Of a stretch of 64,000 nucleotides of DNA, positions 15,726 through 24,192 are shown piece by piece. The notes under the pieces were generated by a model. It did not search any database. It was not told the DNA's origin and saw only the letters and a program-made list of their open reading frames with translations. The number at the start of each line of letters is the position of its first letter. Within the stretch, counting starts at the first letter, position 1. The stretch covers positions 127,724-191,723 of the forward strand of contig PBFW01000007.1 in assembly GCA_002719955.1 (NCBI GenBank). The letters are read 5' to 3'. Made by a program: the position numbers and the translations under genes. The stretch comes from Deltaproteobacteria bacterium. GTDB taxonomy: Bacteria; Myxococcota_A; UBA9160; UBA4427.

Positions 15726-15946
15726 AGAATCAACCCATGAGTCCTTCCAGATCCGCTGGGCGTTTGTACAGCTCACGACATCGCTGGCAGCGAGAATTCG
15801 AACGAGGCCGGCCGAAGGGGCTCCGAATTGGCAGCGGTCAGGGAGGTGGACGCAAGCGCCGGACACTATGCTTGAAACCAGTTTGATGCCCCAAGGAAGC
15901 TTTCGGCGGAACGGCCCCGCTCGAAATCGCAAAGGAATTGGATGCC

Positions 15947-17071
15947 ATGAATACACAGCTCGCTCGCGAACTCGGCCTCGAATTTCCGATCTTCGCCTTC
16001 ACGCATTGCCGCGACGTCGCCGCCGCGGTTTCGAAGGCCGGCGGAATGGGCGTGTATGGCGTCGCCGGAAATTCTGCCGCCGATATTCGAGCTGAACTCG
16101 AGTGGATCGAGAAGGAGGTGGACGGCAAGCCCTATGGCGTCGACGTGCTCCTGCCCACCCGCTTTGTCGGGAGCAACCACGAGGGCGGTTTCAGTGGTGA
16201 CCAACTCGATGAGCGTATCCCCGATGATCATCGACGATTCGTCGAGAGCCTCCTCGCACGATACGAAGTCCCGCCCCTCCAGGAGGACATCCCGATCCGC
16301 GAGGGGACGGGAGTCGGGCTCGAGAGCCAGCGCGAACTCATCGAAGTCCTCTTTGAGTACGACATCAAGTTGATCGCGAGCGCACTCGGTCCACCACCGC
16401 CCTGGATGATCGAGAAGGGCAAGGACAGGGGCGTCATGGTCGCCGCCCTCGCCGGCACCGTCGAACACGCCCAACGCAGTGCAGCCGCTGGGGCCGATCT
16501 CATCATTGCCCAGGGATACGAAGCCGGCGGCCACACCGGGCAGGTCTCGACGATGGTCCTCGTTCCCGAGGTCGTCGATGCTGTCGCCCCTCTCCCCGTA
16601 CTCGCCGCGGGTGGAATCGGCACGGGGCGCCAGGTCACGGCATCCCTCGCGCTCGGTGCCCAAGGCGTATGGATCGGCTCCCTCTGGCTGACGACGGAGG
16701 AAGCCGAGACCGCTCCCGTCGTGAAGGAGAAATTTCTCGCTGCCGGATCGAGCGACACACTTCGGAGTCGATCGCTCACGGGCAAGCCGGCTCGACAGCT
16801 GAGGAGCGCCTGGACCGAAGCCTGGGAAGATCCGTCCAATCCCGACCCGCTTCCGATGCCCCTCCAGCAAAGACTCGTGCGTGAGGCCCAGACACGCATC
16901 ACGCGCACGGCGCACAAGTCTCCCGGCGCAGCTGAGCTCTCCAACTATTTCGTGGGACAGATCGTCGGTACGATGAACCATGTCAAATCCGTCCGCGCAG
17001 TCATGGAAGAACTCGCGACCGGATACGCGGATACGATGGAACGCCTCGACGAGTGGGCGGCCGGGGAATAG
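15947..17071 (+). CDS. Nitronate monooxygenase (2-nitropropane dioxygenase) family flavoprotein
   Basis: 374 residues, FMN-dependent TIM barrel. It has AQGYEAGGHTGQVST with the catalytic His, then PVLAAGGIGTGRQVTASLAL and GAQGVWIGSLW, which bind the FMN phosphate. The ATG at 15947 is preceded by AAAGGA; a TTG three codons earlier is possible. Unlike the smallest family members it has an insertion around residues 70-130 (GVDVLLPTRFVG). Members oxidise alkyl nitronates or act as enoyl reductases; the substrate is not known here. Confidence 0.88.
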   Translation: MNTQLARELGLEFPIFAFTHCRDVAAAVSKAGGMGVYGVAGNSAADIRAELEWIEKEVDGKPYGVDVLLPTRFVGSNHEGGFSGDQLDERIPDDHRRFVESLLARYEVPPLQEDIPIREGTGVGLESQRELIEVLFEYDIKLIASALGPPPPWMIEKGKDRGVMVAALAGTVEHAQRSAAAGADLIIAQGYEAGGHTGQVSTMVLVPEVVDAVAPLPVLAAGGIGTGRQVTASLALGAQGVWIGSLWLTTEEAETAPVVKEKFLAAGSSDTLRSRSLTGKPARQLRSAWTEAWEDPSNPDPLPMPLQQRLVREAQTRITRTAHKSPGAAELSNYFVGQIVGTMNHVKSVRAVMEELATGYADTMERLDEWAAGE

Positions 17072-19190: not shown

Positions 19191-20330
19191 ATGACCGCAA
19201 ACGATTCATCCGAACACCCGAAACTCAACTATTCCAAGGACGACCCGGGCCAGCTCTGGGAAGAGTTCTGTGACTCGCTCAAGCGAGCGGGCAATATCCT
19301 TCGCCGCCCCGAGACGCCGCAGGACGAAAGGACGATCGCCGAGGGCTATCGCCACCTGCTTCGAATGGTGCGGATCGGCTTCGAGAACACCTTCGAGCTC
19401 GCGGATCTCGCGGCTCCACAGCTCACCCCGATGGTCGGTCGAATGGTTCAATACGAGGGCATCACCTCCGACGCCCGCTATCTGCATGCCTTCATCGATG
19501 GCTCGGCGGCCCACGTGATTCGTGGGACGCGCGGTGAGGCACCGCTCATCGAGTTCGGCACCTACAACGGCAAGATGGGGATCCACGATCCCAGCCATCT
19601 TCTCGGATCGATCACGGAGGAAAAGCTCCAGGTCGGCTCGGATGGACGGATCGAAGTCGTTCTTTCCCCAGAAGAGCACTCGGGCAACTGGATTCGCACC
19701 GATGCCGAGACGCGTTATGTCATGATCCGCCAATACGCATCCGAGTGGGACCGGCTCACACCCGGCCGCTTCGAGATCGCGCGCACGGACGGCGCGACCC
19801 CCGCCCCACCCTTCGATCTCGAAGAGATCCGCGACGGTCTCGAACGAACGGCCGCCTTCTCGAACGGCAATCCGCTCATCTGGGCCGGGATCTCCGATTA
19901 TTGGGCCAATTTTGCGGTGAACCGTTTCGTCCCCGAGGTCGATGCCGACGCGCTGACCGACATCGCGCCGCCCTCCGGCCATCATTTCTGTTGTGGCTAT
20001 TTCGATCTGGGCGAGGACGAAGCGTTGGTCATCACGTTCCAACCCGGCGAGGCCGGATTCTGGAGCCTCGGCCTGGCCAGTTACTGGTACGAAACCATCG
20101 GCTACGGGCGCAAGGAGTCCCACCTGAATAGCGGGACCGTGAACGCCGATCCCAACGGACGGGTGCGTGTCGTCATCTCCCAGTCCCCACCTCCGGAATC
20201 CGCCGGCATCCAGAATTGGCTCGATCCCAAGGGCCACCAGAAAGGCACGATGGTCTTCCGCTGGTCACGACCGAAATCGCCGATGCCCGACTTCGAATGC
20301 GAGCGCGTCGCACAGGAATCGCTCTCGTGA
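19191..20330 (+). CDS. DUF1214-type protein (first of three paralogues)
   Basis: 379 residues, no signal peptide. The pattern is an N-terminal helical part (LWEEFCDSLKRAGNILRRP, then EGYRHLLRMVRIGFENTFEL) followed by beta-rich sequence ending in the DUF1214 domain (EALVITFQPGEAGFWSLGLA, later GRVRVVISQSPP). Same architecture as 33958-35067 and 40598-41911. No enzyme activity is established for the family. Its stop codon overlaps the GTG start of the sulfotransferase by four bases, so the two are translationally coupled, which argues for a shared job. Confidence 0.85.
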   Translation: MTANDSSEHPKLNYSKDDPGQLWEEFCDSLKRAGNILRRPETPQDERTIAEGYRHLLRMVRIGFENTFELADLAAPQLTPMVGRMVQYEGITSDARYLHAFIDGSAAHVIRGTRGEAPLIEFGTYNGKMGIHDPSHLLGSITEEKLQVGSDGRIEVVLSPEEHSGNWIRTDAETRYVMIRQYASEWDRLTPGRFEIARTDGATPAPPFDLEEIRDGLERTAAFSNGNPLIWAGISDYWANFAVNRFVPEVDADALTDIAPPSGHHFCCGYFDLGEDEALVITFQPGEAGFWSLGLASYWYETIGYGRKESHLNSGTVNADPNGRVRVVISQSPPPESAGIQNWLDPKGHQKGTMVFRWSRPKSPMPDFECERVAQESLS

Positions 20331-21343
20331 GCACCCGAAAGAGCGCGCCCGCCCGCTTCGTCGTGGGGACGGGCCGCTGCGGTTCGACTCTTCTTTCGCG
20401 CATGCTCTCGATGAACGAGCGGGTGCTCAACGTATTCGAACTCTTCTCGGGCATCGATCCACCCTTCCGCTTCGAGCACCGCGAGGTGACGGGCAAAGAA
20501 CTCGCCGAACAACTTCGACTCGATCACCCGATGTTGACGATGGTCATGAAGCGGGGCGGTGAAGTCCCCGAAGTCGTCTATCCCTTCGACGATCCAAACT
20601 CGCGTTATGTGCTCGGCGATCCCGTCCCCTGGGCCCTCGCCATCGCGATCCCCCGCATCAGCGATGACCCCGATGCGCTCTACGACGAGATGATCGAGCG
20701 GGTCGAGGCCGCTCCGACCCGAACACTCCCGCTGCATTATCGGGCGATTTTCGACTGGCTGACGGATCGATCGGGCAAGCCCGCCTGGATCGAACGTTCC
20801 GGCGGATCGATCGACTTCCTTCCGGATCTGGTCGAGTTCTTTCCCGACGCACGCTTCGTTCACATCCATCGCGACGGGCACGAATCGGCGCTCTCCATGC
20901 GCGAATATGCACCACTTCGAGTCTCGGTCGCCGTCATGAACGGCCTGGCGGGTGAGATCGAATATACCCACGAGGGGCTCGAGCGCCTCGAGCGCGAGGA
21001 AGGCGACGCGATCGACCGGCTTCTCGCCACCGAGTCTCCCATCGAGCTCTACGGGAAATATTGGAGCGAGCAGATTACGAACGGCGATCGAGCACGCCAA
21101 ACGCTGCCCACTGAAAAATTCCTCGACGTGAGATTCGAAGAATTGGTGGTGAACCCCCGTGAAGTTCTGACCGGAATCAGTGATTTCCTAGAGCTGCCGA
21201 ACAACGACGGAAGCGGCTGGATCGAACACGCTGCAGCGCTTTCGCGGGGCATGCCGCGGTTACGCGCGCCCTCGCTCTCGAGCGGAGAACGAGACCGGCT
21301 CGCGCAGGCCTGTGCCGATGCGATGAAGACGCTCGGACGATAA
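20327..21343 (+). CDS. Sulfotransferase-family protein (first of three)
   Basis: 338 residues, starting at a GTG that overlaps the upstream stop (GTGA). The N-terminus VVGTGRCGSTLLSRML is the 5'-phosphosulfate (PAPS) binding loop in the variant with Cys. Later FVHIHRDGHESALSMREYA gives the 3'-phosphate-binding Arg/Ser region. These proteins transfer sulfate from PAPS to hydroxyl groups, though many bacterial members are unproven. No PAPS-synthesis genes are in the window. Coupling to the DUF1214 gene is the main context clue. Confidence 0.85.
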   Translation: MSTRKSAPARFVVGTGRCGSTLLSRMLSMNERVLNVFELFSGIDPPFRFEHREVTGKELAEQLRLDHPMLTMVMKRGGEVPEVVYPFDDPNSRYVLGDPVPWALAIAIPRISDDPDALYDEMIERVEAAPTRTLPLHYRAIFDWLTDRSGKPAWIERSGGSIDFLPDLVEFFPDARFVHIHRDGHESALSMREYAPLRVSVAVMNGLAGEIEYTHEGLERLEREEGDAIDRLLATESPIELYGKYWSEQITNGDRARQTLPTEKFLDVRFEELVVNPREVLTGISDFLELPNNDGSGWIEHAAALSRGMPRLRAPSLSSGERDRLAQACADAMKTLGR

Positions 21344-21482
21344 CCCGCGATCGCGCCTCGGATCGAGGGGGGCCACTCCGGCACCGAGACGTTCTCCGCG
21401 GGCCGGCCCTCCCTGAATCGTCTTGTCTTGGCTCGCAGCGATCATGCGTGCGGATGGGCGTGGCGGATTCACCGTCGAATCT

Positions 21483-21785
21483 TCAGGCCAACGAGATCTG
21501 GATTTCCTGTCGCTGCCGACGTGTAGGGCTCCACAGATCCTCACTCTCGACGGCGGCGACGATTCCGACGCCCACCAAGGCCCGGTGATCGCTCGGTGCA
21601 CCCACCTCGTCCCCAGGCTCGAGTCTTGGAACCCAGCAGCGAAACTCCGCACTCGCCTTGAAGGCTTCGAGCCCGTCGATCGTTTCGATCTTTCCCGGTC
21701 GATCCGCGAACACAGCGAACCACGCTGCGGACCGAGGCTGCACGCTCGGGGATTCACATCGGCCGACCCGGGCGAGCCGCTCGCA
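21483..21785 (-). pseudogene. ATP-grasp ligase, C-terminal fragment (leftward)
   Basis: On the minus strand the frame ending at 21483 reads ERLARVGRCESP, WFAVFADRPGKIETIDGLEA, EFRCWVPRLEPGDEVGAPSD and stops normally after HRALVGVGIVAA and IQISLA. This resembles the C-terminal subdomain of biotin-carboxylase-like/ATP-grasp proteins (V-F-A-D-R-P-G-x-I, then P-G-D-x-V-x-x-x-S-D-H). About 300 residues that should precede it, with the ATP-binding site, are missing. Family assignment is by pattern memory and moderately sure. Confidence 0.55.
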
Positions 21786-21813
21786 AGCGGCCGGCGCCAG
21801 ACCAGCGGCTCGC
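21772..21813. repeat. 10-bp inverted repeat at the junction of two ATP-grasp fragments
   Basis: GCGAGCCGCT at 21772-21781 is the exact reverse complement of AGCGGCTCGC at 21804-21813. In each fragment these bases encode the equivalent residues R-L-A, so the repeat marks the point at which both coding remnants begin. Confidence 0.8.
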
Positions 21814-22108
21814 GATCGGAGAGGTACCGGACTTCGCCGAGTTTGCCCCCTCTCGGGACCGCTGCATCGCCAACCGCCATTTCTTCGCAGAGAACCGGCG
21901 GCTCACGGGGATCGAAGGCGCCGATGAGATCAGGAGACAGCCCTGGATCGCAAAATTTGGACTCTGGCACGCGAAGGGTGACAAAATCCCGCCCACAACG
22001 AGTCACGCGGAGCGCTTTGGTGTCTTCGTGGTCGTCGGCGATGATCGCGAGGAAGTCCAGTCTCGGGTGGACCGGGTCTACCGGACGCTCCAAATCTCGG
22101 TGGGCTAG
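21803..22108 (+). pseudogene. ATP-grasp ligase, C-terminal fragment (rightward)
   Basis: The plus-strand frame ending in TAG at 22106-22108 reads QRLAIGEVPDFAEFAP, DRCIANRHFFAENRRL, IAKFGLWHAKGDKIPPTTSH and AERFGVFVVVGDDREEV. This also looks like an ATP-grasp C-terminal subdomain (I-P-P-T-T-S-H-A-E-R, then a G-D-D-R-E-E-V helix). Its upstream part is lost and replaced by the oppositely directed fragment at 21483-21785. There is no start codon with a ribosome site, so it is unlikely to be translated. Confidence 0.55.
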
Positions 22109-22208
22109 CGACCGCGAAAGAGAAATTCAGACCGTCGGCACCCTCCATTGAGGCGCTACCCTTTGCAGACTCGCGAACGCATCTCAGAAATGAAGAGGGG
22201 GTTATCCG

Positions 22209-22607
22209 GTGGGCGCCAAGATGGCCAAGGCAGCACTCGACGTCGGACTCGTCACCGCCAATGCGAAGCCGCTGCTCGAATTCTATGCTGGCGTCGCCGG
22301 TTTCGAGATCCTCGATCCGATCGAACTTCCAAATATCGGAACGATCCACAAACTCGGATGCGGCGAGAGCATCCTGCGGGTGATGGTGCCGGTCGACGCG
22401 CCGGAGCCCGATGACGGGGCCTCGTTCTCCTCGATCGCGGGGATCCGCTACCTCACCCTCGAGGTCGATGATATCGACGCGGCGGCGGCAGCGGTCGAAG
22501 CGCTCGGCGGGTCGATCACCCTCGCGCCCTTCGAACTTCGACCGGGACGTCGAGTTGCGCAGGTCGCCGACCCCGATGGCAATATGATCGAACTCGGCCA
22601 GGAATGA
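22209..22607 (+). CDS. VOC-family protein
   Basis: 132 residues with the two VOC half-modules: AALDVGLVTANAKPLLEFYA and IRYLTLEVDDIDAAAAAVEA, ending VADPDGNMIELGQ. The GTG at 22209 is preferred because GAGGGGG lies about nine bases upstream; an ATG four codons later is too far from it. Small single proteins of this type include glyoxalases, epimerases and resistance proteins; no function can be assigned. It converges with the extradiol dioxygenase 26 bases downstream. Confidence 0.85.
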   Translation: MGAKMAKAALDVGLVTANAKPLLEFYAGVAGFEILDPIELPNIGTIHKLGCGESILRVMVPVDAPEPDDGASFSSIAGIRYLTLEVDDIDAAAAAVEALGGSITLAPFELRPGRRVAQVADPDGNMIELGQE

Positions 22608-23716: not shown

Positions 23717-24010
23717 TCAGGAGATTCCATCCACGAGCACGGCGAAATGGCTCGACGTGGCCTCCTGACGGATCGGGATCAACTTCTGGTATTCACCGGA
23801 TTCATAGATTTCCTTGGCCTTTTCCATCGAATCGAAACGCATAACGATCGTCTGATGGCCGGGTGTCCCCTCGAGTTTCTCGGTCTTCGGATCGAAGACG
23901 ACGATCTGAGCGATTTCGCCAATCTTCATGATCGGACCCGCCGCGGCGGAATACTCGCCATAACGTTCGGGATTCTCGACGTTGTAGTTTACGATCAGAT
24001 AGGCAGGCAT
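23717..24010 (-). CDS. DUF1330 family small protein
   Basis: 97 residues, the ferredoxin-like dimeric alpha/beta-barrel fold of DUF1330. Motifs are AYLIVNYNVENPERYGEYSA at the start and VMRFDSMEKAKEIYESGEY in the second half. A GAGG sequence precedes the ATG at 24010. It is likely cytoplasmic. Function is unknown. It lies upstream of the extradiol dioxygenase on the same strand, 92 bases away, and may be co-expressed. Confidence 0.9.
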   Translation of the reverse strand: MPAYLIVNYNVENPERYGEYSAAAGPIMKIGEIAQIVVFDPKTEKLEGTPGHQTIVMRFDSMEKAKEIYESGEYQKLIPIRQEATSSHFAVLVDGIS

Positions 24011-24192
24011 GCGAATTCCTCTTCGGGTTCACGGGTCTCGTTGCGAGCGTATGAGGCGCGCAGTCTACCTCGCGCGAAAAATCGACGCCCTCACACCAAA
24101 AGCGATCTCCGAGGCTGACCGCACGATCCCGAGTGGGCGCCAGAAGGGGCCATGCGACCAGAAGCTGCGGGAGGTGATTTCGCCTCCAGGCC

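Follow-up and report, generated by a model that had tools for sequence, protein, structure and literature searches.

A central question raised by this locus is how two truncated ATP-grasp genes came to lie back to back on opposite strands, each running to its own stop codon and each without its catalytic domain. The window, which here denotes the whole 64-kb stretch of DNA that was analyzed (G000:C7:127724-191723), lies on a contig of 427,728 bases in a 5.85-Mb draft genome (G000; 77 contigs, 94% complete, 8.6% contamination). The left piece, L, occupies about 21483 to 21809 on the minus strand and holds the C-terminal ~107 codons of an ATP-grasp/L-amino-acid-ligase-like gene, with its stop at 21483-21485. 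The right piece, R, occupies about 21803 to 22108 on the plus strand and holds the C-terminal 101 codons of a second such gene, with its stop at 22106-22108. The initial annotation had recognized two C-terminal ATP-grasp pieces on opposite strands from the sequence alone and proposed alignment to ATP-grasp families as a check. That alignment bears the assignment out, since both translations match the Pfam domain LAL_C2 (PF18603) above its curated cut-off of 29.4 bits, L with 39.5 bits (E 7e-10) and R with 52.5 bits (E 6.2e-14). The two pieces are paralogous, with 27% identity over 55 residues, and LAL_C2 is the only domain that Pfam finds in them, the ATP-grasp catalytic domain being missing from both. 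Could they nevertheless be functional proteins consisting of LAL_C2 alone? Both frames are open for ~100 codons each, and an in-frame GTG at 21743 gives L an ORF of 86 aa, but R lacks a start codon (the window ORF list holds no ATG-, GTG- or TTG-started ORF of at least 50 aa in its frame), and the intact homologues that were found carry an ATP-grasp domain in front of the domain retained here. L-amino-acid-ligase-like ATP-grasp proteins combine ATP-grasp_3 or ATP-grasp_4 with the same LAL_C2 domain; the window pieces differ from them in keeping the C-terminal domain alone and would not be functional ligases. For this reason, a stand-alone function is extremely unlikely.

The extent of the truncation can be measured against G007, a genome of the same genus in which full-length R (444 aa) and full-length L (397 aa) lie in one block, each with both an ATP-grasp domain and LAL_C2 as judged by Pfam. 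The L piece is 48% identical to residues 290-396 of its G007 homologue and lacks about residues 1-288 of 397 (~73%); the R piece is 49% identical to residues 310-406 and lacks residues 1-309 of 444 (~70%). The earlier estimate that the N-terminal two thirds of both proteins are missing therefore holds, and the pieces are truncated relative to intact homologues, as is expected of pseudogenes that arose by deletion. A search of 80 genomes of the order with full-length L gave no matches beyond G007, the window piece and a distant one of 31% identity, and G007 (HyVt-433) was the only match when GTDB contigs were searched with L. When G000 was queried with the third ATP-grasp protein of the G007 block and with L and R in full length, the missing N-terminal halves did not turn up elsewhere, the sole extra match being a weak one of 25% identity on C13.

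The G007 block runs in the order Maf-like gene, DXS-like gene, R, methyltransferase, third ATP-grasp-like gene and L, with all genes on one strand save the DXS-like gene, which lies on the opposite strand. L and R are thus arranged there in tandem, co-oriented and with two genes between them, and are not divergent. The block spans 4239-13219 of L020 (G007:C369:14000-33900) and holds three ATP-grasp or ATP-grasp-like genes; its Maf-like gene carries an MptE-like domain (5.8e-31), with Maf_flag10_N falling below cut-off. Flanking the block are orthologues of two genes of the window, the nitronate-monooxygenase-like gene (15946-17066) and the DUF1330-like gene (23732-24027). The BKACE-like, sulfotransferase and VOC genes that the window holds are missing around the G007 block.

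What does the same interval look like in other members of the genus? In the window, the two pieces lie between an intact sulfotransferase-family gene on the left (20216-21343, plus strand; Pfam Sulfotransfer_3, 1.8e-21) and an intact glyoxalase/VOC-family gene on the right (22209-22607, plus strand; Pfam Glyoxalase, 8.7e-12). Both are conserved in G001, the closest congener sampled, at 84% and 86% protein identity, respectively, and the sequence to either side of the interval is colinear between G001 and the window, with 80-85% DNA identity. The sulfotransferase-VOC interval of G001 contains neither L nor R and has instead, on C89, the truncated C-terminal portion of a DXS-like transketolase (L061:9764-10588). 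This piece comprises the last ~245 residues, is cut within the pyrimidine-binding domain, and matches residues 347-590 of the DXS-like protein of the G007 block at 52% identity; it constitutes a separate, independent remnant of such a block. From these alignments, the two sister genomes look as if they carry different truncated members of one block. In G033, a genome of the same order, R has a DXS-like gene ahead of it in the same orientation, and this arrangement is consistent with DXS and R having once been neighbors on the VOC side. In two further congeners (G003 and G004), the BKACE-like gene adjoins the VOC gene, with no sulfotransferase gene and no remnants, and the interval from the BKACE-like gene to the VOC gene (19191-22208 in the window) is variable in the genus.

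The intact homologues in G007, the absence of the missing halves and the different remnant in G001 together provide good support for loss of the N-terminal parts, and we consider it likely, with good confidence, that the locus is the deletion scar of a decaying accessory biosynthesis gene block. An accessory block that contained L, R, probably the DXS-like transketolase and others would once have stood between the sulfotransferase and VOC genes. The DNA from a point inside L to a point inside R, including everything between, would then have been lost, such that each gene lost its N-terminal two thirds and two outward-facing, non-functional 3' stumps stayed behind. The simplest path would be one deletion between two outward-pointing genes, and an inversion plus a deletion from a tandem order like that of G007 would also be possible; we infer from these comparisons the former presence of an intact block at this site, its ancestral gene order and the origin of the join in a single deletion. 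Whenever a block has outward-pointing end genes, an internal deletion is expected to leave two outward 3' stumps. Deletions in variable gene blocks are known to leave pseudogene remnants, and this locus resembles such remnants in its truncated outward 3' ends and in the different contents or remnants of sister genomes; no difference in kind is apparent, and the near-equivalent breakpoints of the two paralogues look like coincidence. Some observations count against a deletion scar. In no genome were intact L and R found to diverge, and the join is seen in one genome of the species only. The G007 block lies near but not at the same gene boundary and may be an independent insertion, and both stumps are free of stops over ~100 codons, so the decay must be recent. 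The initial annotation had proposed that two divergent paralogues lost everything between them, and had suggested a comparison with related genomes for two intact divergent genes. The loss stands; the divergent ancestor was not seen in that comparison, as the sole genome with both genes intact has them in tandem.

A further question is how the join was made, and whether the inverted repeat that lies there had any part in it. The repeat is exact, as first described: a 10-bp arm at 21772-21781, GCGAGCCGCT, is matched in inverted orientation by an arm at 21804-21813, AGCGGCTCGC. The first arm is part of the L codons for Glu-Arg-Leu-Ala (ERLA) and the second is part of the R codons for Gln-Arg-Leu-Ala (QRLA), and the family alignment places both motifs at one homologous protein position. 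Because the arms are codons at a homologous position, the repeat is largely what oppositely oriented paralogues would show there, and judged from these codons it would largely be a by-product of two paralogues with common Arg-Leu-Ala codons. The claim that both pieces begin at the equivalent place is correct insofar as ERLA and QRLA align. However, the homology of L does not stop at ERLA. It extends upstream through AAGLAPAAC (AAGRPPAAL in G007), across the apparent spacer and into the second arm, where the Ala-Ala-Gly of the L homology falls at 21804-21809; for R, the homology is secure from 21812 onward, at the Ala of QRLA. L is therefore 10-12 codons longer than the joint first proposed would make it, in the protein frame 10-12 codons separate the L and R breakpoints, and the join lies at about 21804-21812, inside the second arm only, the other arm being internal L sequence. 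No direct or gapped repeats of at least 12 bp were found at the join; a short direct microhomology, AGCGGC, is possible there. The join sequence was not found in viral contigs, and an Rfam scan of the window gave no matches.

These measurements bear directly on the proposal that adjacent divergent paralogues lost all between equivalent sites under the guidance of a hairpin or inverted microhomology at the repeat. The homology of ERLA and QRLA, the exactness of the repeat and the position of the join inside an arm are what such a proposal has in its favor. Nonetheless, the window contains 13 distinct inverted repeats with arms of 10 bp or longer and spacers of up to 60, as compared with about 9.5 expected from first-order Markov sequences, and the probability of at least one such repeat per 626 bp is ~0.07, so that the repeat is near chance level and already explained by the common codons. 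The breakpoints do not coincide, and L and R of G007 are co-oriented and not adjacent. Moreover, inverted-repeat pairing alone does not predict the joining of L to R, and fold-back copying would repeat L beyond the second arm, where R is found instead. With a repeat near chance level and a join in one arm only, the hairpin mechanism was rejected, and guidance by the repeat is very improbable. Similarly doubtful is a process directed at homologous sites of inverted paralogues, such as template switching between head-to-head ATP-grasp genes, which would make the near-equivalence of the breakpoints more than coincidence.

Two other histories of the join must be considered alongside the deletion scar. 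An inversion could have turned L and R from a tandem like that of G007 into a head-to-head pair, with a deletion taking the remainder, and the order R, methyltransferase, third ATP-grasp-like gene and L on one strand in G007 would provide the starting point. Gene order in the block is also fluid in the order, with Maf and the methyltransferase on the strand opposite to R in some genomes. However, this history needs more steps, and inversion alone is insufficient because the N-terminal halves are not present elsewhere in the G000 assembly; it is possible, though we regard it as somewhat unlikely. Alternatively, the join could be an assembly or binning artefact, produced by a false join of contig ends or by collapse of an intact block. 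The genome is a contaminated draft in many contigs, and as it is the only one found for the species, the join is seen in one genome only. Against this, the flanks are colinear with G001 over a long contig, a block remnant lies at the same place in that sister genome, and searches of the other contigs did not turn up the missing interior, which together make an assembly join unlikely. A 10-bp repeat is also shorter than the k-mers usually used in assembly, and we hold an artefact to be improbable. That both the halves and the Maf gene are missing from G000 points to loss, and not to a plain inversion or to assembly collapse of an intact block.

What might the block have done? Neither G000 nor G001 has a Maf gene, but five of the seven other congeners do (G002, G003, G004, G007 and G008). 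Six other genomes of the order have R-like genes no more than 20 kb from Maf-like ones. In Shewanella oneidensis, a Maf gene adjoins a flagellin-modification cluster (PMC3765264). The G007 block resembles such Maf-containing flagellin glycosylation blocks in its Maf-like gene, and the window genome differs from them in that Maf is absent. On the basis of gene content, this suggests that a block of the G007 type may serve a flagellin or surface glycan modification pathway. All five congeners with Maf also match flagellin strongly (E 2e-40 or better). The sole Flagellin_N match of G000 (C33:6116-6493), in a genome that is 94% complete, looks FlgL-like and not like a filament flagellin. G000 might have lost its flagellin along with the block.

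As a deletion scar, the locus would represent ordinary accessory-gene decay that is well documented by comparison with a relative in which the genes are intact, a sister that decayed differently and other relatives without the block, and it has little import alone. If the breakpoints were truly homology-guided, the join would bear on how inverted paralogues get lost. The block itself may concern flagellin or surface glycan modification, and this capacity may have been lost in two sister species.
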